From positions 248,001 to 312,000 of the forward strand of contig NZ_CP102512.1 in NCBI RefSeq assembly GCF_024612015.1: a DNA stretch of 64,000 nucleotides, given 5' to 3'. The DNA comes from Streptomyces sp. CA-210063 (lineage in GTDB: Bacteria > Actinomycetota > Actinomycetes > Streptomycetales > Streptomycetaceae). The translations under genes and the position numbers were made by a program. This document shows, in pieces, positions 299 to 22,204 of this stretch. How positions within the stretch are numbered: position 1 is the first letter of the stretch; the number at the start of each line of letters is the position of its first letter. Below the pieces are notes generated by a model, which had not been told where the DNA came from, did no database searches, and was given only the letters and a program-made list of their open reading frames with translations.

Positions 299-352
299 CT
301 TGTTTCGCAAGAAACAAGTCCGTTACCTTCCCCATCAGGCGAAGCGCTTCGA
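299..352 (+). promoter_or_regulatory. Glycosidase operon promoter with LacI-type operator
   Basis: A -35-like TTGTTT (300-305) is followed after 18 bp by TACCTT (324-329). Nine bases later comes the 14-bp near-palindrome GCGAAGCGCTTCGA (339-352), where transcription would begin. The -35 lies inside an inverted repeat, CTTGTTTC GCAA GAAACAAG (299-318), which could bind a second protein or form a hairpin. The same promoter-then-operator order is found before the minus-strand genes at 19278 and 22015. By analogy with LacI-family operators with a central CG, a repressor bound here would block initiation of the GH42-GH36-GH43-GH5 operon. Confidence 0.6.
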
Positions 353-381
353 CAGTTCCTAGGGGAAGGGCCGCAACCGTC

Positions 382-1755
382 ATGTCGGCACGCAGCATCA
401 CCGACCGCCTGGGCGGCCTCGCCTTCGGCGGGGACTACAACCCCGAGCAGTGGGACGAGCCGGTCTGGAAGGAGGACGACGAGCTCATGCGCCGGGCCAG
501 GGTCAACCTGGCCACGCTGGGCGTCTTCTCGTGGGCCCTGCTCGAACCGGAGGAAGGGCGCTACGACTTCGCCTGGCTCGACGCCCACATCGACCGCCTC
601 CACGCGAACGGCGTGACCGTCGACCTCGCCACCCCGACCGCGTCCCCGCCGCCCTGGTTCACCCTGGCCCACCCCGACGCGCTGGCGGTCCGGCCCGACG
701 GCACCCGCCTCGTCCACGGCAGCCGCGACACGTACTGCCTCGCCGCCCCCGCCTACCGCGACGCGGCCCGCCGGATGGCCTCCGCGCTCGCTGCGCGATA
801 CGGCGACCACCCCGCCCTCGCGCTGTGGCACGTGCACAACGAGTACGGCACGCTCTGCTACTGCGAACACACGGCCGCAGCCTTCCGGGTGTGGCTGCGT
901 GCCCGCCACGGCTCACTGGACGCCCTCAACGAGGCCTGGGGAACGGCCTTCTGGAGCCAGCGCTACACCTCCTGGGAGCAGGTGCTGCCGCCGCGCGCGA
1001 CGCAGTGGCACAAGAACCCCGGCCAGGCACTGGACTTCCACCGCTTCTGGTCCGACGAGATCATCGCCGCCTACTGCGAGCAGCGCGACGCGATCCGCGC
1101 GCACAGCGACCGGCCGGTGACGACCAACCTGATGCTCCCCGCCTACCAGAACGTGGACCTGTGGGTCTTCGCCCGGGAACTCGACGTGGTCACCTGCGAC
1201 CAGTACCCCGGCGCACCCGGCCTGGCGGCCGCCGCCGACGAGCGCCTTCACGCCCGCCTCGGCGGCTACCCGGCCGCCCCCCTGCGCGCGGCGCTGGGCA
1301 TCCGCGTCGAGGAATACCGGCCGCTGCGGCAGGACGAGCGGATCACCCTGTCGGACGGGTCGTACGGCACGGTCTGGAGCGAGTCCCTGCGCGCCGAGGG
1401 CGCAGAGACGCTCGCCACCTACACCCACGGCATGCTCACGGGCAGCCCCGTCCTCACCCGGCACCGCTTCGGCGCCGGACAAGGCTGGTATCTCTCCACC
1501 CGCCTGGAGGACGCCGACTACGCCGCCCTGGTCGGCCGCCTGCTGAAGGAGGCCGGCGTCGAACCGGACGTGCCGGGCCTGCCGCCCGGTGTCGAAGCCG
1601 TCATCCGCCATGCGGCCGACGGCCGCCGCTGGCAGGTCCTGCTCAACCACACCCCCGAGACCGTGCCCTTGCCGGCCCCCGCCCACGACCTGCTCACCGA
1701 TGCCGTCGCGCACGAACTGCCGCCCGGCGGTTGCGCGGTTCTGCGCGGGCACTGA
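382..1755 (+). pseudogene. GH42 beta-galactosidase with large in-frame internal deletion
   Basis: The ATG at 382 gives a 457-residue protein with the GH42 opening FGGDYNPEQW (residues 15-24) and the acid/base Glu in HNEYG (E154). GH42 enzymes of this type usually have about 650-700 residues. After YPGAPGLAAAADE (about residue 287) the sequence jumps to RLGGYPAAPLRAALGIRVEEYRPL, which belongs to the C-terminal part of the family. The end of the TIM barrel, including the nucleophile Glu segment, and most of the trimerisation domain are missing. The frame stays open, so the product is probably made but inactive. It is the first gene of a tight operon (17 bp before the next start). An upstream start at 286 is open but would overlap the promoter, so I prefer 382, which has AGGGGAAGG upstream. 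Confidence 0.8.
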
Positions 1756-1771
1756 CCTGGAAAGGGCCGCC

Positions 1772-3907
1772 ATGGCCAAGGGACAAGGAACCTTCCACTG
1801 GGGGCACGGGGCCCTTACCCTCGAGATCGTCCTCGATGGCGACGGCAGCCCGCGCCTCACGCACCTCGGACTGCCCGGCGAAGCGCAGAGCATCCCCGGT
1901 GCTTCCCTGCCCCTGGTGGAGGTGACGGCCGCGGGCCACGGCCGTGGCTGGTCGGGCAACCGCCTCGTGGGCACCGATCTCGGCGGGCGGCTGCGTCACC
2001 GGTCCCACCGCGCGGCCCGCGACGGCGACTGGCACACCCTGACCGTGCACCTCCACGATCCGGAAACCGGGCTGGCCGCGGAGGTCACCTACCGCTCCCC
2101 GGACGGCATCCCCGTGCTCCGCAGCGAGGTGACCCTGCGCAACGAGGGGCAGGCCACGTTGCACCTGGAGTCGGTCAGCTCGCTCGCGGTGGGCTGCCTC
2201 ACCTCGCAGGCGCCGACGGCCTTCGACGCCGCGGACCTGTTGATGGCGGAGAACGACTGGCTCACCGAATGCCGCTGGCGGCGACAGCCGATGCGCCTGA
2301 GCACACCGGCCCAGAGCGGACGCGTGATCCAGGCGAACGGCAGAGCCGGCCTCACCCTGAACGGACAGGGCACCTGGTCCAGCTGTGGGCACCTCCCCAT
2401 GGGCGGCCTGACGGACCGGATCACCGGCCGCACCTGGGTGTGGCAGATCGAGCACAACGGCGGGGGCTGGCGCTGGGAATGCGAAGAGCGGGACAAGGCC
2501 GCCTACGCGGCGCTGTTCGGACCCACCGACACCCACCACGGCTGGCGGCACTCCCTGGAACCCGGCGCCGTCTTCCGCACCGTACCCGCCGCCCTGTCCT
2601 TCAGCGCCGACGGCGGACCGGACGCCGCGTTCGCCGCGCTGACCCGCTACCGCCGCGCCCAGCGCCGCCCGCACACCGACCACCAGCGCCTGCCCGTCAT
2701 CTTCAACGACTACATGAACTGCCTGATGGGCGACCCCACGACCGAGAAGCTGCTGCCGCACATCGACGCGGCGGCCGACGCGGGCGCCGAGTACTTCGTG
2801 ATCGACGCCGGCTGGTACGACGGCGACAACGGCGGCTGGTGGACCACCGTCGGCGCCTGGGAACCGGCCGCCTCACGTTTCCCCGGGGAGAAGGGGATCC
2901 ACGAGGTGCTGGACCGCATCCGGGAGCGCGGCATGGTCCCCGGCCTGTGGCTGGAGCCGGAGGTGATCGGCGTACGCAGCCCCATGGCCACGTCCCTGCC
3001 CGACGAGGCGTTCTTCCGCCGCGACGGCGTCCGCGTCACGGAGGCCGGCCGGCACCACCTCGACCTGCGCCACCCGGCCGCCCGCGCCCACCTGGACCAG
3101 GTCGTGGACCGCCTGGTCGGCGAGTGGGGCGTCGGCTACCTCAAGCTCGACCACAACATCGACCCCGGCTCCGGCACCAGTTCCCACCCCGGCGAGACCC
3201 CGGGCGCCGGCCTGCTCGGCCACAACCGGGCGCATCTCGACTGGCTCGACGGCATCCTCGACCGGTACCCGCACCTGGTGGTGGAGAACTGCGCCTCCGG
3301 CGGCATGCGCTGGGACCACGCCATGCTGTCCCGGCTGCAACTGCAGTCCACCAGCGACCAGCAGAACCTGCGGCTCTACGCACCCATCGCGGCCTCGGCA
3401 CCCACCGCCGTCACTCCGGAGCAGGGCGCCGTCTGGGCCTATCCGCAGCCGGAGGACTCCCTCGACGAGGTCGCCTTCACCCTGGCGAGCGCCCTCCTCG
3501 GCCGCATCCACCTCTCCGGCCGCCTGCCGGAACTGGGGCCCGAGGCCCGCGCCCTGGTCCACGAAGCGGTCGCCGTGTACAAGGCCATCCGCGCCGACCT
3601 GCCCCGGGCCGTGCCGTCCTGGCCACTGGGGCTGCCCGCCTGGGGCGACCCCTGGATCGCTCTCGCCCTGCACACCCCCACCACCACCTACCTCACCGTC
3701 TGGCGCCGCCCGGGCGGTGAGGCCACCACCACCCTCCGGCTGTCCGAGCGGGCGGGCAGCGCAGCGTCTGTCGAGGTGCTGTACCCCGCCGCACGTCAGG
3801 CCGTTGCCGTCTGGAACCCGGACACGGCCGACCTCACCGTGACCCTGCCCACCGCGCCGTCCGCGGCGCTGCTCCGCATCACCCGCACCGAGCCGGACGC
3901 TCCCTGA
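1772..3907 (+). CDS. GH36 alpha-galactosidase
   Basis: This 711-residue enzyme would release terminal alpha-1,6-galactose from galacto-oligosaccharides such as galactomannan fragments. It has no signal peptide and is likely cytoplasmic. The middle barrel shows DAGWYDGDNGGWW, LEPEVIG, the nucleophile Asp in LKLDHN (D460) and the acid/base Asp in QSTSDQQN (D529). A large N-terminal beta-sandwich precedes it, as in full-length GH36. I chose the ATG at 1772 because GGAAAGG lies 7 bases upstream and the protein starts just after the previous stop. It is the second gene of the operon, so it probably works on imported oligosaccharides. Confidence 0.92.
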   Translation: MAKGQGTFHWGHGALTLEIVLDGDGSPRLTHLGLPGEAQSIPGASLPLVEVTAAGHGRGWSGNRLVGTDLGGRLRHRSHRAARDGDWHTLTVHLHDPETGLAAEVTYRSPDGIPVLRSEVTLRNEGQATLHLESVSSLAVGCLTSQAPTAFDAADLLMAENDWLTECRWRRQPMRLSTPAQSGRVIQANGRAGLTLNGQGTWSSCGHLPMGGLTDRITGRTWVWQIEHNGGGWRWECEERDKAAYAALFGPTDTHHGWRHSLEPGAVFRTVPAALSFSADGGPDAAFAALTRYRRAQRRPHTDHQRLPVIFNDYMNCLMGDPTTEKLLPHIDAAADAGAEYFVIDAGWYDGDNGGWWTTVGAWEPAASRFPGEKGIHEVLDRIRERGMVPGLWLEPEVIGVRSPMATSLPDEAFFRRDGVRVTEAGRHHLDLRHPAARAHLDQVVDRLVGEWGVGYLKLDHNIDPGSGTSSHPGETPGAGLLGHNRAHLDWLDGILDRYPHLVVENCASGGMRWDHAMLSRLQLQSTSDQQNLRLYAPIAASAPTAVTPEQGAVWAYPQPEDSLDEVAFTLASALLGRIHLSGRLPELGPEARALVHEAVAVYKAIRADLPRAVPSWPLGLPAWGDPWIALALHTPTTTYLTVWRRPGGEATTTLRLSERAGSAASVEVLYPAARQAVAVWNPDTADLTVTLPTAPSAALLRITRTEPDAP

Positions 3908-3947: not shown

Positions 3948-5459
3948 GTGCCCGCTCAGAACCCTCCCGCCCGCGCCGCCAACCCCGTGCTCCCTGGGCT
4001 CCATCCCGACCCGAGCATCTGCCGGGTCGGCGACGACTACTACCTCGCCTGCTCCAGCTTCGAGTACTTCCCCGGCGTACCGCTCTTCCACAGCCGCGAC
4101 CTGGTGAACTGGCGGCAGATCGGCAACGTACTGGACCGGCCGGAGCAGTTGCGTCTGCCGGCCTCCATGCCGTCCTCAGGCGGCATCTACGCCCCCACCC
4201 TGCGCCATCACGACGGCCGATTCTGGCTGATCGTCACCAACTGCAGCGAGGGTGGCGGCAACCTGATCGTCACGGCCACCGACCCGGCCGGACCCTGGTC
4301 GGATCCCATCCCGGCACCAGGCGTGCCCGGTATCGATCCCGACCTGGCCTGGGACGAGGACGGCACCTGCTGGTGCACGGTCGCGGGGGTGTCGCAGGTC
4401 CGCCTCGACCCGTCCACCGGCGAGACGTACGGAACCCCGCACAGGCTCTGGTCCGGCGGCCCCGGCGCGAAGGCCCCGGAGGCGCCGCACCTGTACCGGA
4501 TCGGCGACTACTGGTACCTGCTCATCGCCGAGGGCGGCACCGAGCGCGGCCACGGCGTGTCGATCGCCCGCGGTAGCACGCCCCAGGGCCCGTTCGAGGC
4601 GTGCCCGGCCAACCCGATCCTCACCCACCGCGGCACCGACCACCCCGTGCAGAACACCGGCCACGCGGACCTGGTCCAGGCGCCCGACGGCTCCTGGTGG
4701 ATGGTCTTCCTCGGCGTACGACCGCGCGGCGGCACCCCCGGCTGGCACGTGCTCGGCCGGGAGACCTTCCTGGCTCCCGTGACCTGGGTGGACGGCTGGC
4801 CGGTCGTCGGTGAGGTCACCTTGGACCTGTCCGCGCCCCCCTGGCCGCTCTCCCCCGCTCCCGCCGAGGAACGGCGCGACGACTTCGAGCTCAGCGAACT
4901 CGGGCCGACCTGGATCTCCGTGCGGGACCGCCCCGCCGAGCTCTGCACCACCAAGGAGCGCCCCGGGTGGCTGACACTCCGCGCGCGGGGCGGCTCCCTG
5001 GACGAGCCCGACGTGGTGTTCACCGGCCGGCGCCAGCAGCACCTCACCTGCCGGGCCCGCACCCTGGTCGACCCGGAGCAGGGGCGCGGCGGCCTCGCCG
5101 TCCGGCTGGACGAGCGGCACCACTACGCGGTCGAGGCGTCCGGGACGGACGTGCGAGTGATCGCGCGGGTCGGCTCCCTGCACACGGTCGTGGCCGAACG
5201 CTCCGTACCCGCCGGGCCGCTGGTGCTCGCCGTCACGATCACGGACCCGCCGCCTCCGCACGGACCGTGCACCGGACCCGACGTCGTCTCCCTCGGCATC
5301 GAAGAACCCGACGGCACGTTCACCGAGTTCGCGGCCCTCGACGGCCGCTCCCTGTCGACCGAGGTCGCCGGCGGCTTCACCGGCCGGGTCATCGGCATGT
5401 ACGCCACCGCAGGCACCGTCCACTTCGACTGGTTCGACTACGAGCCTCTCGAAAGCTGA
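3948..5459 (+). CDS. GH43 beta-xylosidase / alpha-L-arabinofuranosidase
   Basis: This 503-residue protein starts at GTG 3948 with GAAAGGA 9 bases upstream. The five-bladed propeller signatures are all present. They are the base Asp in HPDPS (D21), GIDPDLAWD carrying the pKa-modulating Asp, EAPHLYRIGDYW with the acid Glu, and NTGHADLVQAPDG. A C-terminal beta-sandwich (about residues 310-503) follows, as in the GH43 group with a DUF1349-like domain. No signal peptide is seen, so it probably removes xylose or arabinose from imported oligosaccharides. Substrate specificity inside GH43 cannot be read from sequence alone. Confidence 0.9.
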   Translation: MPAQNPPARAANPVLPGLHPDPSICRVGDDYYLACSSFEYFPGVPLFHSRDLVNWRQIGNVLDRPEQLRLPASMPSSGGIYAPTLRHHDGRFWLIVTNCSEGGGNLIVTATDPAGPWSDPIPAPGVPGIDPDLAWDEDGTCWCTVAGVSQVRLDPSTGETYGTPHRLWSGGPGAKAPEAPHLYRIGDYWYLLIAEGGTERGHGVSIARGSTPQGPFEACPANPILTHRGTDHPVQNTGHADLVQAPDGSWWMVFLGVRPRGGTPGWHVLGRETFLAPVTWVDGWPVVGEVTLDLSAPPWPLSPAPAEERRDDFELSELGPTWISVRDRPAELCTTKERPGWLTLRARGGSLDEPDVVFTGRRQQHLTCRARTLVDPEQGRGGLAVRLDERHHYAVEASGTDVRVIARVGSLHTVVAERSVPAGPLVLAVTITDPPPPHGPCTGPDVVSLGIEEPDGTFTEFAALDGRSLSTEVAGGFTGRVIGMYATAGTVHFDWFDYEPLES

Positions 5460-5497
5460 ACCGACCGAAGGTCACGACCGACCGAAAGGGACGACAC

Positions 5498-7252
5498 ATG
5501 AAGGACATACGGCACCCCGCACACCACCGAAGCCGCGGCCCCGGCCGCCTGGCCTCCCTGCTCCTGGTGCTCGCCGTCATGCTGGGACTCGCGGGCGGCA
5601 CCTCGACCGCCGCGACCGACGGCACGGCGGAGCCGACAGGGTCCACCCTCAGAGTTCCGGCCCGCGCCATGGACGCCGTCGCCGCGATGCGACCCAGCTG
5701 GAACCTGGGCAACACCCTGGACGCCATTCCCAACGAGGATTCCTGGGGCAACGGGCAGACCACCAAGGCGACGTTCGAGAAGGTCGCCTCGGAGGGTTAC
5801 CGCAGCGTCCGCATCCCGGTGACCTGGAGCGCCCACCAGTCCACCACCGCCCCGTACACCATCGACGCCACCTACATGGCCCGCGTCAAGCAGCTCGTCG
5901 GCTGGGCGCTGGACAGCGGCCTGTACGTCGTGCTCAACGTCCACCACGACTCGTGGCAGTGGGTCGAGAAGATCACGAGCGACCACGACAACGTGATGGC
6001 CCGGTTCAACTCCACCTGGTCCCAGATCTCCACGACCTTCCGTGACGCGCCGCGCACCCTGGTCTTCGAGGGCATCAACGAGCCGAGCTTCGCCGGCGCC
6101 ACGGATGCGCAGAAGTTCCAGTACCTGAGGGAGCTGCAGACGTCGTTCCACTCCGTGGTCCGTGCCTCGGGCGGCGCGAACGCGAACCGCCTGCTGAGCC
6201 TGACCACGCCGGCCGGCAGCCCCGACCAGGCCTTCATGGACGACCTGTACAAGACGATCACCGCGCTGAACGACGATCAGCTCATTGCACAGGTGCACTT
6301 CTACAGCTGGTACCCGTTCAGCGTGAACGTCGCGGGCGGCACCCACTACGACGCCACCGCGCAGAAGCACCTGGACGACACCTTCGCCAACATGCACAAC
6401 ACCTTCGTCGCCAAGGGCATCCCGCTCTACATCGGCGAGTACGGCCTGCTCGAGTGGCCCAACCACTTCCACCCCTCCCGCGTCGAGCGGGGCGAGGCGC
6501 TGAAGTACTTCGAGCATGTGGGATACGCGGGGCGCAAGTACGGCCTCACGACCGCCCTGTGGGACCCGTTCTCGTACCTGAACCGCGAGACCCTGCAATG
6601 GCGTGACCCGGCCCTGATGAACTGGATCAAGTCGAGCTGGACCACCCGCTCGGGCACGGCCTCCTTCGACAAGGTCTTCGTGCCGAAGTCCAGCCCGGTC
6701 ACGGCCAAGTCGCTCACCCTGAACCTCAACGGGACCAAGTTCCGCGGGGTGTGGCAGGGCGACACCAAGCTGGCCGCGGGACGGGACTACACCGTTTCCG
6801 GCAACCAGCTGACCTTCACCGCCGGCGCGCTGACCCGCCTGGTCGGCAACCGCGCCTACGGCGTCAACTCGACCGTCCAGGCCCGGTTCACCAGCGGCCT
6901 GCCCTGGAACATCGACATCGTCACCAACGACGTTCCCGTGGTGTCGGACGCCACCGGCACTGTCGAGAAATTCGCCGTTCCCACCCAGTACCGGGGCAAC
7001 GACCTGGCGACCATGCACGCCACGTACGCCGACGGCACCAATGCCGGCCAGACCGACTGGACTCCGTACCAGGAGTTCAACAAGGCCTTCTCGCCGGACT
7101 ACCCGAACAGCACGATCATCCTGACTCCCGAGTTCCTCAACGCGCTCCGCGACGGGGAACCGGCGACGCTGGTCTTCCACTTCTACAGCGGCGCCACGGT
7201 CACGTACCACGTCACGAAGTCCGGCAGCTCGGTCACCGGCACAGCCTCCTGA
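5498..7252 (+). CDS. Secreted GH5 endoglucanase/mannanase with X2-like modules
   Basis: This 584-residue exported enzyme has a basic N-terminus and a hydrophobic stretch (residues 18-33), followed by a small-residue cleavage region near 39. The GH5 barrel shows NLGNTLD, VRIPVTW, NVHHDSWQW, the acid/base Glu in INEPS (E195) and the nucleophile Glu in YIGEYG (E314). After residue 385 come two beta-rich modules. The first resembles CBM_X2 (SLTLNLNGTKF), and the second is of unknown class and ends the protein. GAAAGG sits 9 bases before the ATG. It is the only clearly secreted member of this four-gene operon, so it probably makes the oligosaccharides that its cytoplasmic neighbours finish. Confidence 0.9.
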   Translation: MKDIRHPAHHRSRGPGRLASLLLVLAVMLGLAGGTSTAATDGTAEPTGSTLRVPARAMDAVAAMRPSWNLGNTLDAIPNEDSWGNGQTTKATFEKVASEGYRSVRIPVTWSAHQSTTAPYTIDATYMARVKQLVGWALDSGLYVVLNVHHDSWQWVEKITSDHDNVMARFNSTWSQISTTFRDAPRTLVFEGINEPSFAGATDAQKFQYLRELQTSFHSVVRASGGANANRLLSLTTPAGSPDQAFMDDLYKTITALNDDQLIAQVHFYSWYPFSVNVAGGTHYDATAQKHLDDTFANMHNTFVAKGIPLYIGEYGLLEWPNHFHPSRVERGEALKYFEHVGYAGRKYGLTTALWDPFSYLNRETLQWRDPALMNWIKSSWTTRSGTASFDKVFVPKSSPVTAKSLTLNLNGTKFRGVWQGDTKLAAGRDYTVSGNQLTFTAGALTRLVGNRAYGVNSTVQARFTSGLPWNIDIVTNDVPVVSDATGTVEKFAVPTQYRGNDLATMHATYADGTNAGQTDWTPYQEFNKAFSPDYPNSTIILTPEFLNALRDGEPATLVFHFYSGATVTYHVTKSGSSVTGTAS

Positions 7253-10268: not shown

Positions 10269-10303
10269 CTGGGGCTCCTTTTCCCGGGGATCACACAAGG
10301 GGG

Positions 10304-10317: not shown

Positions 10318-10319
10318 GG

Positions 10320-13300: not shown

Positions 13301-15513
13301 CAGACGGGCTCCCCGTACTGCACGCCGCGCCCGTTGGTGGCGAGGTAGACCCGGCCGTGGACGCGCGGATCGCCGGTGATGGCCGCGCCGGTCCAGCCCC
13401 ACCGGTGCTGGTCGTCGTTGATCCGCAGCCAGGTCTTCGCCTCGTCGTCGGAGCGGTAGATGGCGTTGAAGTCCTCGATCCCGCCGGCCATGTAGATCGC
13501 CGGGTAGGAGGCGCCCTTGGCGGCCTTGCCGAAGCCCAGGGTGTGCGAGGCCCGGCAGCTGCCGACCTTGGTGAAGCTCGCGCCGCCGTCGGTGGAGCGG
13601 TAGAGCCCGTTCGCCTTGGCGCTGAGCCACAGGTCGCCGGGGCGTCCCGGGGCCGCGGCCAGCTGGAACCCGGCGTCGCCCGAACTCAGGCCGGTGGCCC
13701 GGGCGGTGAAGGTCAGGCCGCTGTCGGTGCTGGCGTAGAGCGTGCCGGCCGTCGTGTCGTAGGCGTAGAAGCGCGCAGGGTCCACGGGGTCCGCGACCAG
13801 GACGGCGCCCTTCGGGAGAGAGGTGACCTCGGCCCAGGTGGCGCCGTTGTCCGCCGAGCGGTGCGCCGGATACACGGTGCCGTCCCAGTGCGCGAGGGAC
13901 CACAGCAGCACACTGCCGTCGGCGTTGGTGACGATCGGGCCGGGCGCGTCCTTGGCGACGGCCGGCTGCGACGCGAAGGGCTCCCAGGTCTTTCCGCCGT
14001 CGTTCGACCATGCGCCGTTGCCCTGGTCGCCCGAGCCGGTGCGCACGACGTACGAGGGCTTGGCCGCGGCCTGGGCGAGTGCGATGGCGGACCCGAACAC
14101 GGGGTTCGTGGCCATGCCGCGGGACGGTGAGGCGGTCAGCCGCTCGTGGTAGAGCACGCCGATGTCCCGCGATCCGCTGATCAGGTGGGCCTCTCCCGTC
14201 GGAGGCGACAGGAGCGCCACCACGGACGCCTCCTCGAGGCCGCGGATCTGCGGGGCCCAACGCTTGAGGTCGCGCGTGCCGTACAGGGTCGCGCCGGTGC
14301 CGTAGACGACGTGCTCGGAGTCGAACGGGTCGAGGCCGACGGCCTGGATCCACCAGCCGAACTTGGGCTTGTCCTTGCCCCAGTTGAGGTAGGGGGTCTC
14401 GGAGACATCGAGGACGGCCGTGTCCTTCAGGGACATCCAGGTGCGGCCGCCGTCGGTGGAACGGAAGACGGTGTCGATCTCGGCCCAGCGGTTGTTGGTG
14501 GACACGACGAGCGTCCCGGGCCGGCGGGCGTCGACGGCGACCCCGCCGTAGCCGAAGGAGTCGGTCCCGCCGTCGCTCGTCGCCCCGCCGGGCTTCACGG
14601 GCGTGACCTCGGTCCACTTCCCGTTCGCCGTACGCAGCTTGTGCACGCTGCCGTCCGACTGACCGTTGGGGCCGGGGGCGTTGGCGTACGTCACGTACAG
14701 CTCGCGGGTGAGGCGGTCGTACGCGGCGCGGACGGGCACCTTGGCGGCGGTGCCGGTGGGCTGCCCGGGGACGGGCTCCCAGGTCCTTCCGTCGGACGTG
14801 CGGTACAGGTTGGGGTGGTCGGCGGTGCCGTCGGAGTCGCCCCAGCCGGCGTAGACGCTGCGGCCCGCGGCGACGACAAGGGTGATGCCCTGGCCGGTGG
14901 CGCTCGGCCTGGCCGGGAAGCTCACGGCCTTCCAGGTCGCGCCCCGGTCGGTCGACTTGAGCAGCCCGTCGTGCCGGGTGCCGAGCCACAGGGTGTCGCA
15001 GTTCCGTGGGTCGACCAGCAGCCGTTCGCCGCATCCCCGCCCGTCCTCGTTGCCGCCGAACTGCACGGTGAGGTCGGTGCGTTTCCAGGTGGCGCCCCGG
15101 TCCTCGGACCGCAGCACGGCCCCGTTGCCGGCCCAGGGCTGGGTGTACGTGCCGAGGGCCAGGTACACCCGGTTCGGGTGGGCCGGGTCGACGGCCATGG
15201 CCTCGACGCCGAGGAGGTTCCAGTCGTCCCAGCCCAGGTGGTCGGTCAGCGGGATCCAGCGGTCGGTCCGGTCGTCCCAGCGGTAGGCGCCGCCGATGTC
15301 GGTCCGGGCGTAGGCGAGCCCTCGCACCGACGGGTGGAACAGCACGCCGGTGATGAACCCGGTGCCGCCCATGACGGCGTTGCGCCAGCGGTAGCCGGTT
15401 GCGGCCGACTCGGCGGCCTGTACCCGCCCCGGGAGGAAGGGGACGGTGGTAAGCGCGGCGGCGGCCGCGGCCCCGGCGAGAACGGCTCGCCTGCCGAGGT
15501 GGGACGTGTGCAT
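13300..15513 (-). CDS. Secreted GH74 xyloglucanase
   Basis: This 737-residue exported enzyme cuts the beta-glucan backbone of xyloglucan. The N-terminus carries an Arg-Arg pair (residues 8-9), a hydrophobic core and a cleavage region near 34, so Tat export is possible. Two seven-bladed propellers are indicated by repeated sialidase-like S-x-D-x-G-x-T-W motifs (for example SEDRGATW, STDRGATW and STDGGRTW). The catalytic acids are D72 in YARTDIGGAYRW and D396 in VGLDPFDSEH. There is no binding module. It follows the ABC permease genes by about 120 bp and overlaps the GH42 remnant, so import and depolymerisation are co-transcribed. Confidence 0.93.
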   Translation of the reverse strand: MHTSHLGRRAVLAGAAAAAALTTVPFLPGRVQAAESAATGYRWRNAVMGGTGFITGVLFHPSVRGLAYARTDIGGAYRWDDRTDRWIPLTDHLGWDDWNLLGVEAMAVDPAHPNRVYLALGTYTQPWAGNGAVLRSEDRGATWKRTDLTVQFGGNEDGRGCGERLLVDPRNCDTLWLGTRHDGLLKSTDRGATWKAVSFPARPSATGQGITLVVAAGRSVYAGWGDSDGTADHPNLYRTSDGRTWEPVPGQPTGTAAKVPVRAAYDRLTRELYVTYANAPGPNGQSDGSVHKLRTANGKWTEVTPVKPGGATSDGGTDSFGYGGVAVDARRPGTLVVSTNNRWAEIDTVFRSTDGGRTWMSLKDTAVLDVSETPYLNWGKDKPKFGWWIQAVGLDPFDSEHVVYGTGATLYGTRDLKRWAPQIRGLEEASVVALLSPPTGEAHLISGSRDIGVLYHERLTASPSRGMATNPVFGSAIALAQAAAKPSYVVRTGSGDQGNGAWSNDGGKTWEPFASQPAVAKDAPGPIVTNADGSVLLWSLAHWDGTVYPAHRSADNGATWAEVTSLPKGAVLVADPVDPARFYAYDTTAGTLYASTDSGLTFTARATGLSSGDAGFQLAAAPGRPGDLWLSAKANGLYRSTDGGASFTKVGSCRASHTLGFGKAAKGASYPAIYMAGGIEDFNAIYRSDDEAKTWLRINDDQHRWGWTGAAITGDPRVHGRVYLATNGRGVQYGEPV

Positions 15514-15635: not shown

Positions 15636-16562
15636 TCAGCCCTTGATGGCCCCCGTGAGCATGCCCTTCTTGAAGTGGCGTTGGACGAAGGGGGAGGCAA
15701 CCGCGACGGGGGTCAGCGCGAGGACCATGACGGCCATCTGCAGCCCCAGGGCGGAGAGTTCGCCGGTGTGGACCGCCTGCTGGAGGCCGGTCGGCGCTTC
15801 GGTGCCCTTCTGGACCAGCTGGATGAGCACGTTCTGCAGCGGCAGCATCTCCTGGTCGGTGAGGTAGATGGAGGCGTTGAACCAGGCGCTCCAGTAACCG
15901 ACCGCGTAGAACAGGGAGATGACCGCGATCACCGCCCGCGACAGCGGCATGATGATGGTCAGCAGGATCCGCAGCTCGCCGGCCCCGTCGATGCGGGCGG
16001 ACTCGGTGAGTTCGGGCGAGATCCCCATGAAGAAGGCCCGCAGGACGAGGACGTTGAAGACGCTGACCGCGCTCGGCAGGATCAGCGACAGATAGGTGTC
16101 GGTGAGGCCGAGCGCCTGCACGAGGAGGTACGTCGGGATGAGGCCGGCCCCGAAGAACATGGTGGCCATGATGGTCATCAGGAAGTACCGGTGCCCGAGG
16201 CTCCCCGGCCGGGAAAGGCCGTAGGCGCCGAGGACCGAGACCGCCATGGAGAACAGGGTGCCGAAGAAGGTGACCCCGACCGAGACCATGATCGCCCGGC
16301 TGACCTGGCCGCCGCCGAGCAGTTCCGTGTAGTTGACGAAGGTGATGCCGCGGGGGATCACGACCAGGCCGCCGGCCTGGTCGATCACCGGTTTCGGGGA
16401 GAGGCTGGTGACGATGACGATCCACAGCGGACCGAGGACGCCGAGGCAGCACAGGAGCAGCAGGCCGCCCTTCGCGGTGAGTCCGGCCTTGCTGGGCGGC
16501 TCCTCCCACACCGGCCGGGGCGGCGCCTTGAGGCTGCGGATGAGCGTGGTGTCGAGACTCAT
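15636..16562 (-). CDS. Carbohydrate ABC transporter permease (LplC/YtcP type)
   Basis: This 308-residue inner-membrane protein has about six hydrophobic segments, beginning near residue 32. The EAA-loop signature (about residues 188-205) includes ESARIDGAGELRIL, the surface that contacts the ATPase. The ATG at 16562 overlaps the stop of the upstream permease (ATGA), which decides the start and indicates coupled translation. It is the third gene of the binding-protein/permease operon. No ATPase gene is present in the window, so a shared sugar ATPase of MsiK type encoded elsewhere is likely. Confidence 0.93.
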   Translation of the reverse strand: MSLDTTLIRSLKAPPRPVWEEPPSKAGLTAKGGLLLLCCLGVLGPLWIVIVTSLSPKPVIDQAGGLVVIPRGITFVNYTELLGGGQVSRAIMVSVGVTFFGTLFSMAVSVLGAYGLSRPGSLGHRYFLMTIMATMFFGAGLIPTYLLVQALGLTDTYLSLILPSAVSVFNVLVLRAFFMGISPELTESARIDGAGELRILLTIIMPLSRAVIAVISLFYAVGYWSAWFNASIYLTDQEMLPLQNVLIQLVQKGTEAPTGLQQAVHTGELSALGLQMAVMVLALTPVAVASPFVQRHFKKGMLTGAIKG

Positions 16563-17614
16563 TTCTTGTACACCCCCTGCTCGCCCAGGAGATGCGCGAA
16601 CTTGTTCGCGCCCAGGACGAGAGCGACGCCGATGAGCCCCTTGACGAGGCCGACCGCCGCCGCGTAACTGAAGTCGCCGTTCTGGATTCCCATGTTCCAT
16701 ACGTAGGTGTCGAGGACCTCACTGGCTCCCGCGCCGACCGCGTCCCGCTGGAGCAGGAACTGCTCGAAGCCGACGCTCAGCGCGTCGCCCACCCGCAGGA
16801 CCAGCAGCAGCGCGATCACCGGGCGCAGTGCGGGCAGCGTCACGTGCCACATGCGCCGCCAGCGCCCGGCGCCGTCCATGGCGGCGGCCTCGTACAGATC
16901 CGTGCTGACGGCGGAGAGCGCGGCGAGGAAGACGATGATCCCCCAGCCGGCGTCCTTCCACACGGCCTCCGCGGTGACCAGCCACTTGAACAGGTCCGCA
17001 TTGGTCATCAGATCGAAGCCGCTCCAGCCGTGGCTCTCCAGGGTCTGGGCGATGATGCCCGCGCCGCCGAAGATCTGCTGGAAGACGGTGATCACAAGGA
17101 CCCAGGAGAAGAAGTGCGGCAGGTACATGATCGCCTGTGCCACGGCCCGCACCCGGGGCCGGATCACGCTGTTGATGAGCAGCGCGAGGGCGATGGGCAC
17201 GGGGAAGAACAGCACGAGCTGGATCACGAACAGGACGAGGGTGTTCTGCGTGGCATCCCAGAACAGCGGGTCCTCGACCATCCGCTCGACCTGGTCCAGG
17301 CCGACCCACGGGCTGTGGAAGATCGCCGTGATCCCGTTGCCGGCGATGTACGGGTCGTACTCCTGGAAGGCGATGACGTTGCCGAGCAGCGGGACGTAGT
17401 GGAAGACCAGCAGCAGCGCGACGAGGGGCAGCGTCATCAGGATGAGCGCACGGTCGCGGTGCCACCGGACCCGGAACGGGACCTTGCCGGCCTTGCCCGG
17501 CCCGCGCGTCGCCCGCCTCTTCGTCACCTCCGCGGCGGCGACCGCGGCCGCCGGCTCCTCGACGGCCGCGGGGGGACGGGTCCCCTCCGGCCTGCTCCCG
17601 GTGGTGAGCGACAT
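16559..17614 (-). CDS. Carbohydrate ABC transporter permease (LplB/YteP type)
   Basis: This 351-residue membrane protein has a long cytoplasmic N-terminus (about 60 residues, Ala/Glu/Arg-rich) before the first transmembrane helix LILMTLPLVALLLVF. The EAA loop reads YEAAAMDGAGRWRRMWH, close to the family consensus. Its ATG overlaps the stop of the binding-protein gene (TGATG), and its stop overlaps the next permease. The LplB-type pair usually imports larger oligosaccharides. Beside GH74, xyloglucan oligosaccharides are the natural guess. Confidence 0.93.
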   Translation of the reverse strand: MSLTTGSRPEGTRPPAAVEEPAAAVAAAEVTKRRATRGPGKAGKVPFRVRWHRDRALILMTLPLVALLLVFHYVPLLGNVIAFQEYDPYIAGNGITAIFHSPWVGLDQVERMVEDPLFWDATQNTLVLFVIQLVLFFPVPIALALLINSVIRPRVRAVAQAIMYLPHFFSWVLVITVFQQIFGGAGIIAQTLESHGWSGFDLMTNADLFKWLVTAEAVWKDAGWGIIVFLAALSAVSTDLYEAAAMDGAGRWRRMWHVTLPALRPVIALLLVLRVGDALSVGFEQFLLQRDAVGAGASEVLDTYVWNMGIQNGDFSYAAAVGLVKGLIGVALVLGANKFAHLLGEQGVYKK

Positions 17615-19278
17615 CAGTTGCCACTGCCGTTCTTGTCGAGGAGCTCCTTGTACCAGTCGCGCAGCTTGTCACCGCCGGAGGACTTCCAGTTGGCGATGAA
17701 GTCCTGGACGTCGGACATCTTCTTGTGGCCGCGCACGTAGTCGATCTGCAGCTGCTCGAGCTGGCTGGAGAGGTTGGCGTAGCGGGCCGGCTCGATGACG
17801 GTCATGCCGTAGATGGAGGTCTTCTTCATGAAGGCACCCATCCGCTGCTGCCACTCGACCTGCGCGCGGGCGATACGGGGGAGGTCGGGGTGGGCCTCGT
17901 AGGGCGCCGGGTGCGCCAGCATCGCCCAGGCGTTGATCACCTCGCTGTTGCCCTGGTCGGTCTTGACCGGGACGCCGTCCTTGACCGTGTAGTGGCTGCC
18001 CTCGACGCCGTAGTCGACGAGCATCCGCTCCTTGGTGCCGTAGGGCGCTGCCGCGAAGTTCGCGGCGGCCAGGGCGTTCTCGACCGTTTCCTTGGAGGCG
18101 CCCTTGCGGATCATCGACCAGATGTTGGCGGGCGCGGACGCGTACGGCGTCGGGTTGCCGCCGTCGACGCCGAAGATGTCCATGCCGTCGATCTGGAACT
18201 CCGGGTTGGCCCGGGCCTGTTCGGCGGCCTTGACGTACCAGAACGACATGTCGCCCTTGCAGACCAGGATCTGTCCGGCGGTGAACCGCTGGCCCTCGTC
18301 GCCGGTGCGCGCCCTGTCATCGGGGTGGACCACGCCGGCGTCGAACAGCTTGCGGAGCCACGCCAGGGATTCGAGATACTCGGGACGCTCGATGCTGTAC
18401 CGCAGCTTGCCGTCGTCGTCGATGTTCCAGTTGGGCGCGACGCTGAAGACGGCGCCCGCGATCCAGGAGATGTCACCGCAGGCATACACCTTGGCCCTGG
18501 CGCTGGTGGCGTCCTTGGCCCAGCTGAGGAACTCGTCGGCCGACTTGGGTACGGAGTACCCCTTCTTCTCGAAGATGTCCTTGCGGTAGTAGGGCACGAT
18601 CATGCTGGCAGGGGCGGTGGGCATCGGAATGCCGCGCAGCGCGCCGCCGAAGATGCCCATGCGCCAGGCGTCGGACGGTATCGCGGCCAGGTTCGGGTAC
18701 TTCTTGACCTTGTCGCCCGCCAGGTAGGGGCCAAGGTCCATGCACTTCGCGGCGACCGCACTCCCGATCTTGCTGTTGTTCAGTTCCCAGCTGGGCACGA
18801 CCACCATGTCGGGCAGGGAGGTGGAGGCGAGGACGGCGCCGAGCTTCTGGCCGTAGGTCATGCCGTTCTGGTTCTGCCAGGTGACCTTGGTACCCGCCGC
18901 CGCGTCGAGCTCCTGGTAGTAGGCGCAACCGGGCTTCGGCGGGGTGCCCCAGAACGGGGACATGATCTTGACGGGGGCGCCGGTGCCGAGCTTGTCCGGG
19001 ACCGAGGTGGCGAGGGCCGCGAGGTCGACCTTGCTGGTGTAGCCGGCCGCCGAACCGTTCTTCGAGGGCATGTCCGGATCGGCCACCTTGCTGGCGACGT
19101 AGGTCGGGAGCAGCTTGTCGGCGGCCTTGCCCGACGTGGTGCCCTCGCGCGAGCTGTTGTCCGAACCGCCGCAGGCGGTGAGCAGCGGCATTCCACCGGC
19201 CACCGCTGCGGTGGCGATCGCGGAGGAGGCGAGGAAGCTTCTCCGGCTCGGTCCGGAGGAAGCGGCATTCGGCGTCAT
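17614..19278 (-). CDS. ABC transporter sugar-binding lipoprotein
   Basis: This 554-residue extracellular solute-binding protein has an N-terminal RRSFLAS stretch of Tat type and a lipobox, LLTACGG, with Cys at about residue 36. It would therefore be anchored outside the membrane. Its length (about 550) fits the large oligosaccharide-binding proteins that pair with LplB/LplC permeases. It is the first gene of the operon with the two permeases, GH74 and the GH42 scrap. The promoter carries the TCGAAGCGCTTCGA operator at 19396-19409. The ligand is not visible in the sequence. Xyloglucan oligosaccharide is inferred from the neighbours. Confidence 0.9.
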   Translation of the reverse strand: MTPNAASSGPSRRSFLASSAIATAAVAGGMPLLTACGGSDNSSREGTTSGKAADKLLPTYVASKVADPDMPSKNGSAAGYTSKVDLAALATSVPDKLGTGAPVKIMSPFWGTPPKPGCAYYQELDAAAGTKVTWQNQNGMTYGQKLGAVLASTSLPDMVVVPSWELNNSKIGSAVAAKCMDLGPYLAGDKVKKYPNLAAIPSDAWRMGIFGGALRGIPMPTAPASMIVPYYRKDIFEKKGYSVPKSADEFLSWAKDATSARAKVYACGDISWIAGAVFSVAPNWNIDDDGKLRYSIERPEYLESLAWLRKLFDAGVVHPDDRARTGDEGQRFTAGQILVCKGDMSFWYVKAAEQARANPEFQIDGMDIFGVDGGNPTPYASAPANIWSMIRKGASKETVENALAAANFAAAPYGTKERMLVDYGVEGSHYTVKDGVPVKTDQGNSEVINAWAMLAHPAPYEAHPDLPRIARAQVEWQQRMGAFMKKTSIYGMTVIEPARYANLSSQLEQLQIDYVRGHKKMSDVQDFIANWKSSGGDKLRDWYKELLDKNGSGN

Positions 19279-19395: not shown

Positions 19396-19448
19396 TCGAA
19401 GCGCTTCGATGTTGCTGTGAGGTTAAGTGAACACCCATAGGCGCACAA
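19396..19448 (-). promoter_or_regulatory. Transporter operon promoter with operator
   Basis: On the minus strand a -35-like TTGTGC (19448-19443) is followed after 17 bp by TAACCT (19425-19420). Ten bases further is the perfect palindrome TCGAAGCGCTTCGA (19409-19396). This layout matches the promoters at 300-352 and 22123-22072. The operator would cover the transcription start. Confidence 0.65.
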
Positions 19449-19525
19449 GGGCCGCTTCCAAGATTCCTTCAGGGCGCTGTCGGGAGCTCTGCCTATGTCC
19501 TGCTTGATGGAACGGCGTTGCTCCC

Positions 19526-19567
19526 TTGACGCTCGCCTGGCGCCTGACCAGCATCGAAGCGCTTCGA
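19526..19567 (+). promoter_or_regulatory. Promoter and operator of the GH3 remnant
   Basis: A -35-like TTGACG (19526-19531) lies 28 bp before a perfect TCGAAGCGCTTCGA (19554-19567). The operator overlaps the expected -10 position, as at 22162-22204. It points to the plus strand and the GH3 remnant starting at 19602. Confidence 0.5.
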
Positions 19568-19601
19568 AAGCTCGTACCGCTCCGTCTCAGGGGGATCCCA
19601 T

Positions 19602-19735
19602 GTGTCCGCCCACGCGCCGCACGCACCAGCACCTTTCCGCGATCCGCGGCTGCCTTCCGCGAAGCGCATCGACGATCTGCCGGCGCGGCTCACGCCCGAC
19701 GAAGAGATGGGATGGCTACGACCGCGTGGGCCGGC
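19602..19735 (+). pseudogene. GH3 beta-glucosidase 5' remnant
   Basis: GTG at 19602, preceded by AGGGGGA, opens a frame whose first 37 residues look like a GH3 start. It reads PAPFRDPRLPSAKRIDDLPA, followed by RLTPDEEMGWL, the conserved helix of GH3 N-termini. After about residue 38 the similarity ends abruptly and no barrel follows. The promoter, operator, ribosome site and first codons thus survive while the rest of the gene is gone. A beta-glucosidase or beta-xylosidase here would have belonged to the same regulon. Confidence 0.6.
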
Positions 19736-19873
19736 CTCCGCGGCGACCAGGACGTCCTGCTCGGGGACGCGAAGGGCCGATGAATTCGGCCAGGGCGTGC
19801 CGACAGACCGACGCCGGGTTCGTTGTCGGCCTGTCGGCCTGTCGGCCTGTTTCCGGTGCCGCGGTGGCGGATG

Positions 19874-22015
19874 TCACCGGTCCTGCGCGGCCGGCCCCGG
19901 TGCGGCGGCGAGGACGCGGACGTCCCAGGCGCCGAGCCCCACGGGCGTACCGGCCGGGACCGCGCTGCCGTCCAGGGCGTCGGTCAGGTCCACCGGGGCC
20001 TGGGCGGTGGCCGGCTGCCAGCTCCAGTTGTGGACGACATGGACGCGCCGGCCGTCGGGGGCGGTGCCGGTGGCGACGGTGACCGAGTCCGGCAGGTCCT
20101 GCCAGCCGCTGCACGGGGAGGGCGCGAGCCACTTGGCAAGGGCGCGGGCCAGATCGCGGCCGGGCACGGTGCCCACGCAGGTGACGCGGCCCGCGCCGTG
20201 GCGGCGGGTGGTGACGGCGGGCCAGCGCCCGAAGTGCGGGTGGTCGTACTCGGCCAGGACGTCGGCGTCCTCGACGGCCAGGCCCTCCACCCAGCGGGTG
20301 GCCACCGCGTCGGCGGGCAGCTGGAGCGGGCTGCCCGGTGCGGTGCGCAGCGGCAGGTCGGCGTGCAGGTTGCTGAACTCGTCGTACCGGACGCCCGCGG
20401 CCCGCGCCAGTCGCGCCGGCGTCACCTCGTGGCGTGCCCGCGCCTCATGGTCGCCGTAGCCGGTGCGGGGACCGAGGACGAGGTGGCCGCCCGCCTCCGC
20501 GTAGGCGCCGAGCCAGTCGAGCATCCCGTCGCCCGCCACGTACAGCCCGGGAGCGATGAGCACGGGGTGCAGCTCGGCCGCCGACTCCGGTGCCAGGCCT
20601 GGGCGTTCGCCGCGCGCGTCGTGCAACTGACGGGCGTGCAGGATCCGTACCTGGCGCCCCGCCTCGAACGCGCCCCGGTAGAACGGGTCGAAGATGCCCT
20701 CGTACGCGCCCCTGTCCGGACCGCCGTCGGGACCCGCGAGCGGCGGGTACTTGTTCATCAGCCACTTGCTCGGCGCCGAGTACACCATCGCGATGTCGGC
20801 GTCCGGTGTGATCCCGGCGACCAGGTCTCCGGCCCGCTCGAACTCCGCTCCCAAACGGGCGAGTTCACCGTAGGCGCGGCCCGGCCGTCCGCTGTGCGGG
20901 AGGATCCCGCCCCAGTACGTCTCGGTGCCGAAGTGCAGCGTGTGCCAGTGCCAGTACTCGATCATGCGGGCCCCGCGCGCGACCAGCGCCCACGCGGCCT
21001 GCCGCCACTGCCCGTCGAAGGCGGGCCGGTTGTCCGAAGTGCCGCCGATGGCCTGGGCGTTGGTCTCCGTGATCAGGAACGGCTCCTGGCGCGAGGAGTA
21101 GATCCGGTCGGCGCTCTGGTGCAGCGCCCATGCCCCGTACGACATCCACTGCCCCGGCAGCTTCTCGTGCGGAGGCTCCGGCATGGTGAGGCTGTCCTGC
21201 ATGTCGTAGTACGGGTTGCCCGCGGTGACGTCCAGGCTGTCGGTGAGTTCGTCGTCCTCCAGGCCGGGAGACCAGTAGGCCAGGCACGTGGTGACGAACT
21301 GGCCGGGCCTCGCGTACTCACGCACGATGCCGGCCTGCCAGGCGATGAACTCGGTGGTCTGCCGGGCCTGGAACGCCCGCCAGGCCAGGTCGTACTGCGG
21401 CTGTGCGTTGCCCTCCGGCTTCCACAGGTCGGCCCAGGTGGACAGTCGGTGCGACCAGTACACAAGACCCCACTCGCGGTTGAGGGTCTCCACATCGCCG
21501 TACCGCTGCCGCAGGTCGTCCACGAACCGCTGGAAGACACCGTGGTTGTGCGGCAGCCGGGGGCCCGGCTCGTTGTCGACCTGGAAACCGATGACCGCGG
21601 GATGATCGGCGTAACGGGCCGCGATCGCGCGGATCACCCGCTCCGCGTGGAAACGGAAGGCCGGGTGCGTGATGTCGACCTCCTGCCGGCCACCCCACGC
21701 GGCGCGCCGCCCGGTGGCGTCCTCGGCGGCGATCTCCGGGTACTGCCGGGCCAGCCACGGCGGCACCGCGTAGGTGGGAGTTCCGAGGACGACGGAGATG
21801 CCGCGCTCATGGGCGCCATCGAGGACGGGTTGCAGCCAGTCGAGTTCGAACCGGCCGTTCTCCGGTTCCCAGGTGGACCAGACCGACTCGCCGACGCGGA
21901 TGACGGTGAAGTTCGCCTCCGCCATGAGATCGAGGTCGGTCGTGAGCCGCTCGTACGGCTGGTACTCGTGGTAATAGGCGGCGCCGAACAGGACGCGCGC
22001 GGGCAGATCAGTCAT
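19874..22015 (-). CDS. GH42 beta-galactosidase, full length
   Basis: This 713-residue enzyme, without a signal peptide, would remove terminal beta-galactose inside the cell. The ATG at 22015 was chosen because MTDLPARVLFGAAYYHEYQP is the GH42 start. The longer frame runs through the operator. The acid/base Glu is in VDNEPG (E149) and the nucleophile in FLITETNA (E317). The trimerisation and C-terminal beta domains are complete. It contrasts with the two deleted GH42 genes in this region. It is divergent from GH1-GH31 and its promoter carries the shared operator, so it may remove galactose from xyloglucan side chains. Confidence 0.93.
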   Translation of the reverse strand: MTDLPARVLFGAAYYHEYQPYERLTTDLDLMAEANFTVIRVGESVWSTWEPENGRFELDWLQPVLDGAHERGISVVLGTPTYAVPPWLARQYPEIAAEDATGRRAAWGGRQEVDITHPAFRFHAERVIRAIAARYADHPAVIGFQVDNEPGPRLPHNHGVFQRFVDDLRQRYGDVETLNREWGLVYWSHRLSTWADLWKPEGNAQPQYDLAWRAFQARQTTEFIAWQAGIVREYARPGQFVTTCLAYWSPGLEDDELTDSLDVTAGNPYYDMQDSLTMPEPPHEKLPGQWMSYGAWALHQSADRIYSSRQEPFLITETNAQAIGGTSDNRPAFDGQWRQAAWALVARGARMIEYWHWHTLHFGTETYWGGILPHSGRPGRAYGELARLGAEFERAGDLVAGITPDADIAMVYSAPSKWLMNKYPPLAGPDGGPDRGAYEGIFDPFYRGAFEAGRQVRILHARQLHDARGERPGLAPESAAELHPVLIAPGLYVAGDGMLDWLGAYAEAGGHLVLGPRTGYGDHEARARHEVTPARLARAAGVRYDEFSNLHADLPLRTAPGSPLQLPADAVATRWVEGLAVEDADVLAEYDHPHFGRWPAVTTRRHGAGRVTCVGTVPGRDLARALAKWLAPSPCSGWQDLPDSVTVATGTAPDGRRVHVVHNWSWQPATAQAPVDLTDALDGSAVPAGTPVGLGAWDVRVLAAAPGPAAQDR

Positions 22016-22071
22016 GCGAAGCCCTTGAGAGACGAGTGGATCCCGGCAGTCGAGACGGGAAAGTGGTGCAG

Positions 22072-22123
22072 TCGAAGCGCTTCGATTGAGATGCAAGTTA
22101 ATGAGGAATTTCTGGCGAAACAA
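22072..22123 (-). promoter_or_regulatory. GH42 promoter with operator
   Basis: On the minus strand TTGTTT (22123-22118), a 17-bp spacer and TAACTT (22100-22095) are followed after 9 bp by the perfect palindrome TCGAAGCGCTTCGA (22085-22072). The -35 region CTTGTTTCGCCAGAAA is shared almost base for base with the promoter at 299, which reads CTTGTTTCGCAAGAAA. Confidence 0.65.
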
Positions 22124-22161
22124 GAGGCTGCAGTCACTGGAGCCGGGTTTTCCGCCAGGCA

Positions 22162-22204
22162 TTGACATCGCATCTCAGGCAGTGGCAGCGTCGAAGCGCT
22201 TCAC
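22162..22204 (+). promoter_or_regulatory. GH1-GH31 promoter with operator
   Basis: TTGACA (22162-22167) is a good -35. The operator TCGAAGCGCTTCAC (22191-22204; 12 of 14 match) starts 29 bp later and would overlap the -10/start region. The GTG start of GH1 is at 22241. Confidence 0.55.

Follow-up and report, generated by a model that had tools for sequence, protein, structure and literature searches.

Paired palindromic operators at xyloglucan-type promoters of Streptomyces sp. CA-210063 and their probable repressor, the distantly encoded LacI-family protein LacI-B

At the gal promoters of Escherichia coli, repression was best at operator distances of 103, 113, 123 and 133 bp and was lifted at 108, 118 and 128 bp, with a wild-type distance of 113 bp, according to the available part of that report (PMC4693257). 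For the lac system, in vivo loop data fit helical repeats of 11.08 and 11.60 bp, as stated in the accessible section of the paper (PMC1762422). The LacI-family regulators CebR and CelR of Streptomyces and Thermobifida resemble the system described here in acting on plant-polysaccharide genes, at many promoters, through a 14-bp palindrome centred on GCGC, as the accessible portions of three papers indicate (PMC4898821, PMC3377646, PMC5332605). In the present study, we analysed a stretch of 64,000 nucleotides from Streptomyces sp. CA-210063 (hereafter the window; positions 248,001-312,000 of the single 10.86-Mb contig), in which the palindrome TCGAAGCGCTTCGA recurs at predicted promoters of glycoside hydrolase (GH) and importer genes. 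We propose, as probably correct, that TCGAAGCGCTTCGA is the operator of a LacI-family protein, LacI-B, which without its inducer would shut the xyloglucan promoters from paired, looped sites.

Scanning the window returned TCGAAGCGCTTCGA exactly at 19396, 19554 and 22072 (window positions), giving three exact 14-mers versus 0.00016 expected from base composition. With up to three mismatches, nine matches were found versus 3.8 expected, a number reached by 1 of 100 shuffles. A preliminary description of this DNA had placed one operator at five positions, the other two being 339 and 22191. All five were present, but two of them carried mismatches (one with one mismatch and one with two), which had been left unsaid; the two spacing layouts given for the promoters proved correct to the base. 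The one-mismatch site at 218, which is paired with 339 here and in relatives, was missing from that list, and the pairing of the sites and the helical phase of the pair spacing had also been overlooked. The five sites and the one at 218 form three pairs: 218/339 (121 bp), 19396/19554 (158 bp) and 22072/22191 (119 bp). Using transcription starts predicted from the promoter elements, we distinguished two classes. In class I, the operator would lie about 10 bp after the -10 element, just past the predicted start. In class II, the -35 element begins 28-29 bp before the operator, which would cover the predicted -10/start region. The two-mismatch look-alike at 19659, GCGAAGCGCATCGA, was rejected as an operator; its sequence corresponds to the codons AKRIDDL of a GH3 N-terminus, so it is probably no operator.

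The genome-wide motif scan suggested in the preliminary description was run and gave eight exact sites, several of them outside the window, versus 0.028 expected from base composition and none for a reversed-pattern control. Besides the three window sites, one lies upstream of the LacI-B gene with a two-mismatch partner nearer the gene. Two others lie in a second xyloglucan-type cluster at 2.79-2.81 Mb, which contains a solute-binding protein (SBP) gene, two genes in the permease place, GH42, GH95, GH12 and GH36 genes, and a divergent GH3 gene. One further site heads an SBP-GH31-LacI operon at 6.56 Mb, whose LacI gene is referred to as LacI-C. Two genome positions were discarded as operators: the eighth exact site, 8,219,379, with five copies in relatives, which falls on IEALR codons of a DHDPS-type gene, and 2,808,100, the counterpart of 19659, which falls on the GH3 codons AKRIDDL. 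Genome counts at two mismatches were uninformative (92 matches vs 84 for the reversed pattern), and the exact 12-mer did not discriminate (9 matches vs 9 for its reversal).

Among 101 congeneric genomes, the exact motif was found in 59. LacI-B-type genes (E <= 1e-70, a threshold that includes LacI-C) were found in 56, and all 56 carry the exact motif. These 56 genomes hold 214 exact sites versus 4 reversed-control matches, and the other 45 genomes hold 3 exact sites versus 16. The three motif genomes without a LacI-B-type gene (G016, G025 and G051) have one site each, inside reading frames; these sites read as SKRF codons and were rejected as operators. A separate exact operator in G091 (4,244,994; L434:7995) lies outside the called frames, about 70 bp upstream of the start of a cold-shock-protein-like gene as judged by eye.

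The LacI-B gene is located at 2,782,944-2,783,954 of the genome, about 2.5 Mb from the window and ahead of a GH31 gene. The GH31 gene and an AI-2E-type transporter gene follow it, and a divergent acyl-CoA dehydrogenase gene precedes it. The protein matches the LacI helix-turn-helix (HTH) domain (PF00356, 4.9e-17) and the sensor domain (PF13377, 5.6e-30), which places it in the LacI/GalR family, and the palindrome with its central CG is positioned at or near the promoters that LacI-B would control. The LacI-B promoter itself has a third layout, in which two sites flank a TGGACA-17-TACTGT core, as seen by eye in eight sequences of the genus. An exact site and a weaker second site with 1-2 mismatches were present in 80 of 80 named loci and in 118 of 119 unique loci, the miss being L094 with one site only; TCGAAGCGCTTCAC, the variant found at 22191, is also the commonest proximal-site variant at this promoter. 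The 80 named loci are all from Streptomyces except for one "Actinobacteria bacterium", with S. caniscabiei (99%) and S. scabiei (98%) among the closest. Within the genus, the two sites are 88-93 or 101-103 bp apart. In another family of the same order, the operator pair was found in all nine LacI-B loci of 67-71% identity with enough upstream DNA, an identity cut chosen after the outcome was seen (L478, with 32 bp upstream, was excluded). In these loci, the distal site is 152-258 bp from the start codon and the inter-operator distance is steady at 89-91 or 99-101 bp.

The SBP/GH3 control region provided the largest sample. After removing five same-genome duplicates from 170 fetched regions, 165 unique loci remained. 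L193, in which SBP is cut at a contig edge and no site occurs in 3,051 bp, was left out; its genome, G099, carries two exact sites on another contig, at a distance of 159 bp. Exactly two operators, each with no more than one mismatch, were present at every one of the 165 loci, and both are exact in 163. A TTG stands 37-41 bp before the SBP-side operator in 165 of 165 loci (TTGT in 152), a TAA stands 14-18 bp before it in 160, and TTGAC stands 27-31 bp before the GH3-side operator in 162. In an alignment of 30 regions (29 loci and the second cluster of this genome), CTTGTG and TTCACTTAACCTC were strongly conserved ahead of the SBP-side operator, as were TTGACA and AGCA ahead of the GH3-side one. 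Because the promoter elements are kept over 165 loci, each layout represents one half of a divergent control region. In most of the 30 aligned regions (L164-L192), another block, GGAATCTTGG, is conserved about 10-20 bp upstream of the SBP -35 element; this block could be the site of a second regulator.

The inter-operator distances in this region fell into groups of 109-112, 123-126, 158-161, 166-173, 180-184, 188-195, 202-206, 214 and 223 bp, and no SBP/GH3 locus had a distance of 162-165, 174-179, 185-187 or 196-201 bp. On a tree of the GH3-coding sequence (164 loci, one of the 165 being too short), 88 spacing changes were inferred, and 43 of the 51 changes of at least 5 bp were within 2 bp of a multiple of 11. 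The control, the distance from the operator to the SBP start in the same loci, gave 31 of 80 (Fisher 2.4e-7). An SBP-gene tree (59 loci, five duplicates) gave 21 of 22 changes of at least 5 bp near a multiple of 11 versus 13 of 33 for the control, and the tip pairs of the GH3-coding tree gave 15 of 18 versus 8 of 27. The best-fit period was 11.1 bp for distances of at least 150 bp. These results indicated that two operators in fixed helical phase, the arrangement typical of GalR, are present at the SBP/GH3 region; elsewhere the phase was weakly tested.

The same quantisation could instead arise if a few ancestral lengths were inherited, or if the divergent promoters, and not repressor contact, constrained the spacing; we regard this explanation as rather unlikely. 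Related loci do have lengths in common, the promoters shift along with the operators, and each tree rests on one gene, the larger tree on about 330 bp. However, both trees yielded many inferred changes, no quantisation was seen in the adjacent control distance of the same loci, and the LacI-B promoter, with one core between its two sites, has the narrow spacings given above in both families. Selection on repressor contact is our preferred account of the phasing, and the following points tell against it. Strong phasing was seen at the SBP/GH3 region only; of 40 changes inferred for the LacI-B promoter, 2 exceeded 3 bp (8 and 11 bp). The pairs of 119-122, 109-112 and 244 bp (L439, L426) are not clearly in phase with the 158-206 series. 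The spacing constraint could act between promoters. LacI-B has no tetramer tail, so looping would require GalR-type contacts.

Pairs of operators also occur at other loci. At orthologs of the GH36 operon, the pair spans 121 bp in the window and 122, 121 and 120 bp in G097, G009 and G091. On the minus strand, TTGGCT begins 29 bp before the 218 site, and these three relatives have TTGACA there. Among 30 GH36 loci, nine had a pair (eight at 119-122 bp, including those of G097 and G009, and a ninth, at 89 bp, shorter by about three turns), one, that of the window, had a single site as its flank ends, and 20 had no site. The 1.5-kb flanks of these 20 contained a GH42 match in 13 cases, a GH74-type match in 3 and neither in 4. 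Further pairs were found at 244 bp (G007, G049) and at 101 bp (G097, before a GH5 gene). In G049, a second window-like xyloglucan cluster (L425, 10.146-10.166 Mb) has its own 155-bp operator pair; its SBP and permease matches are short (56/554 and 124/351 residues), as if the importer had been lost.

Several observations weigh against LacI-B as the regulator of these sites. In the single-contig genomes compared, LacI-B lies about 5-22 kb from the SBP cluster; because its promoter carries the operator and is near that cluster, part of the co-occurrence of the motif and LacI-B is linkage. Unlinked targets (the window, the LacI-C operon and the GH36 operon) are fewer, an example being G009, in which the site maps to 8.77 Mb and the LacI-B gene to 7.15 Mb. 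GH36 orthologs of 65-70% identity (L523-L526) had no site within 1.5 kb. Among matches to LacI-B itself, no site was found in 347 bp at L477 (66%, from another genus of the family), in 188 bp at L481 (65%), or at five matches of 64-65% and one of 60%; a match at 60% had a single one-mismatch site, and one at 62% had two two-mismatch sites. LacI-C could bind these sites too, and all three genomes with the local LacI gene LacI-W, discussed below, carry the motif.

LacI-C (6,562,086-6,563,075), at the end of its SBP-GH31-LacI operon, is 55% identical to LacI-B. In the relative L442, a permease match lies between the SBP and GH31 genes of this operon. LacI-B and LacI-C together, or LacI-C alone, might regulate the window promoters through a shared operator and two sensors, and we give this a minor though appreciable chance. 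The exact operator heading the LacI-C operon is consistent with it, and so is the recognition helix: among 43 LacI-family HTH matches in this genome (30 of 43 parsed), the STVSY-LSGKR helix was found only in LacI-B, LacI-C and a gene at 9,080,326. Of the four genomes that have LacI-C only, three carry their single site 5.4-5.6 kb upstream of LacI-C, a placement also seen in this genome; the fourth, G086, has it immediately beyond the opposite end of the gene. Yet these four genomes have one site each and no SBP match, whereas the motif occurs in all 44 genomes with the SBP gene, 22 of which have LacI-B without LacI-C. LacI-C alone is thus not needed, though it may share the sites with LacI-B.

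The preliminary description had attributed the sites to repression by one LacI-family protein and had named the product of the gene at 7319-8368 (LacI-W) as the candidate. The first part was well supported, as 165 loci keep the operators and the promoter spacing, and the second was not supported. Orthologs of LacI-W with at least 64% identity occur in 3 of 101 genomes, this one included, versus 59 of 101 for the motif; the remaining matches (44-58% identity, among them another gene of this genome, at 3,973,261) were taken as other paralogs. Control of the cluster by LacI-W was considered, as it is the sole LacI-family match inside the window and the controlled genes surround it. G091 preserves its order beside GH5 and GH43 and has a pair with one and two mismatches near LacI-W, upstream of GH43-GH5; in G011 a one-mismatch site lies about 13 kb from LacI-W on the same contig. 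However, the LacI-W promoter contains no perfect palindrome of at least 12 bp, and the recognition-helix region VSVPTVSK is unlike VSASTVSY of LacI-B and VSPSTVSY of LacI-C, whose operons carry the operator. In G097, moreover, the GH36-GH43-GH5 operon keeps its 122-bp pair although LacI-W is reduced there to a broken remnant, matched over 83 and 35 residues. LacI-W was rejected as the main regulator on these grounds, and we consider its control of the cluster improbable; the natural guess from proximity was probably wrong. In G011 (contig 34, L437), a LacI-B paralog (63%) and two LacI-W-type genes in tandem lie beside permease genes, an SBP gene and a one-mismatch site, a cluster that may show how such regulators are exchanged.

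We infer binding, repression, inducer and looping from the sites, their pairing and layouts, their conservation, the phylogenetic link to LacI-B and the SBP/GH3 quantisation. In the absence of the inducer, probably a xyloglucan oligosaccharide judging from the gene set, LacI-B dimers would occupy the two operators of each control region. The repressor would sit just past the predicted start at class I promoters, over the predicted -10/start at class II promoters, and on both sides of the -35/-10 core at its own promoter. Two bound dimers would touch across a DNA loop, which would hold the spacing to whole turns and shut both divergent promoters together. LacI-C, the paralog, would act through this operator on the transporter-GH31-LacI operon to which it belongs, and cross-talk between the two may occur. 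We lean towards the broader view that a tail-less LacI-family dimer bridges paired operators, often located between divergent promoters, and so controls a scattered xyloglucan regulon. On this view, selection has preserved the helical phase of the pairs while dozens of insertions and deletions, each about one or two turns long, accumulated.

The features of the window are listed in Table 1. Judged from domain matches, the first 26 kb, which also include a GH6 cellulase gene, hold a gene set suited to xyloglucan: all parts of a xyloglucan locus were matched (endo-xyloglucanase, alpha-xylosidase, beta-galactosidase, beta-glucosidase and an oligosaccharide importer), with predicted activities. 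Upstream of the GH6 gene, at 10910-10937, a perfect palindrome, GGAAGCGCTTCC, adjoins TGGGAGTGCTCCCC, which has two mismatches to the CebR box; this suggests a separate, cellulose-type control of that gene. The window SBP shares 60% identity with its counterpart in the second cluster, where a full-length GH3 gene is present (L042:5909-8908). As the 19554 operator faces a GH3 remnant only and the minus-strand promoter at 218 has TTGGCT, not TTGACA, the window cluster may be a partly decayed copy. To the left of 218, a short stretch within 1-217 resembles by eye the start of the short-chain dehydrogenase gene at 35793-36473, like a decayed gene copy. Frames resembling split insertion sequence transposases were also seen by eye at about 28704-29761 and at 60088-60962, possible routes for moving clusters near the chromosome end.

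Table 1. Operators, predicted promoter elements and genes in the window (window coordinates).
Feature	Position	Strand	Remarks
Operator variant TCGAAGCGCATCGA	218..231		1 mismatch; distal partner of 339
Class I promoter TTGTTT-18-TACCTT	300..329	+	GH42a operon; predicted
Operator GCGAAGCGCTTCGA	339..352		1 mismatch; 9 bp after -10
GH42a, short beta-galactosidase gene	382..1755	+	PF02449, PF08532, PF08533; GH42 and GH42M domain matches incomplete
GH36, alpha-galactosidase-type	1769..3907	+	PF02065
GH43, arabinofuranosidase/xylosidase-type	3948..5459	+	PF04616
GH5, endoglucanase-type	5495..7252	+	PF00150; with CBM_X2 (PF03442) and CBM46 (PF18448)
LacI-W	7319..8368	-	PF00356/PF13377; regulator candidate of the preliminary description
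GH27, alpha-galactosidase	8622..10343	-	Melibiase_2; ricin-type lectin domain (Ricin_B_lectin)
GH12	12057..12773	-	PF01670
GH74-type endo-xyloglucanase	13300..15513	-	BNR/Sortilin-type repeats; no named GH74 model matched; taken by us as GH74 from the family fold
Two ABC sugar permease genes	15636..17614	-	PF00528; first at E 1e-4, below the curated cut-off
SBP of ABC importer	17614..19278	-	PF13416
Operator, exact	19396..19409		Class I; SBP promoter
Class I promoter TTGTGC-17-TAACCT	19420..19448	-	SBP operon; predicted; kept in relatives; -10 to operator 10 bp
Class II -35 element TTGACG	19526..19531	+	28 bp start-to-operator; TTGACA in 160/165 loci
Operator, exact	19554..19567		Class II; former GH3 promoter
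GH3 N-terminus remnant	19578..19800	+	tblastn, 49% over 74 residues, E 7e-15
GH42b, beta-galactosidase	19874..22015	-	
Operator, exact	22072..22085		Class I; GH42b promoter
Class I promoter TTGTTT-17-TAACTT	22095..22123	-	GH42b; predicted; -10 to operator 9 bp
Class II -35 element TTGACA	22162..22167	+	GH1-GH31 operon; predicted; 29 bp start-to-operator
Operator variant TCGAAGCGCTTCAC	22191..22204		2 mismatches
GH1, beta-glucosidase	22241..23632	+	PF00232
GH31, alpha-xylosidase	23626..25911	+	NCBIfam NF007940, 1228 bits vs cut-off 606

The palindromes might be regarded as drifted CebR boxes under cello-oligosaccharide control, which we consider very improbable. The CebR box TGGGAGCGCTCCCA has the same 14-bp length and GCGC centre in the available parts of the reports (PMC5332605, PMC4898821), and an A. 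mirum xyloglucanase is predicted to be under CelR, according to the accessible part of another (PMC3377646). However, the half-site TCGAAGC differs from the TGGGAGC of CebR, as given in the same partial sources, at 3 of 7 positions, and it is kept in the 165 loci described above. The targets are xyloglucan-type and include the regulator's own LacI gene, and the S. scabies GH74 gene is listed without a CebR box in the part of the report at hand (PMC5332605). No exact TGGGAGCGCTCCCA was found in the window. CebR is described in these excerpts as a cello-oligosaccharide sensor encoded beside a cellobiose transporter and a beta-glucosidase, whereas LacI-B belongs to a GH31 operon and has no such neighbourhood. 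Phased pairs are not mentioned in the accessible portions of PMC4898821, PMC3377646 and PMC5332605.

XygS/XygR of Ruminiclostridium cellulolyticum controls xyloglucan degradation, import and catabolism, but the available text describes a two-component activator and not a LacI-family protein. AxuRS and XylQ of Caldicellulosiruptor bescii have a comparable predicted role at an alpha-xyloside transporter and an alpha-xylosidase, but they are AraC-family regulators from a different organism group, according to the part of the paper available (PMC8579813). The 12-mer CGAAGCGCTTCG, or longer forms of it, did not occur in the open-access papers searched. Among the matches listed, no LacI-type xyloglucan regulator of Streptomyces or other actinobacteria was found in the open-access literature, and an earlier motif prediction in RegPrecise is possible; in a comparative study of the LacI family, xyloglucan is absent from the main text as far as it was available (PMC4052901). 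The analysis puts forward LacI-B as a regulator of xyloglucan breakdown in Streptomyces that can be put to the test.

LacI is a tetramer through its C-terminal tail. In the alignment of LacI-B with the LacI structure 1lbg, the match stops at residue 328 of 360 in LacI and residue 329 of 337 in LacI-B, which thus has no tetramer tail. E. coli LacI at lac, as covered by the accessible section of PMC1762422, resembles LacI-B in repressor family, in helical-phase dependence (here of the spacing) and in a repeat of about 11 bp. The two proteins differ in this tail. Because LacI-B lacks it, GalR is the closest working model. The available part of PMC4693257 describes GalR with HU at gal as a LacI/GalR-family dimer acting on two operators around promoters with a turn-wise dependence on spacing, all features resembling those proposed here. 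Unlike at gal, looping in the present system is deduced from the evolution of spacing, and the operators stand at divergent catabolic promoters and at several loci. The gal operator also differs in sequence from TCGAAGCGCTTCGA. The 165 natural variants of one control region are comparable to the spacing series built by hand for lac and gal and offer a comparative test of looping. If the proposal is true, the genomes themselves record the in vivo helical repeat of the loop, about 11.1 bp.

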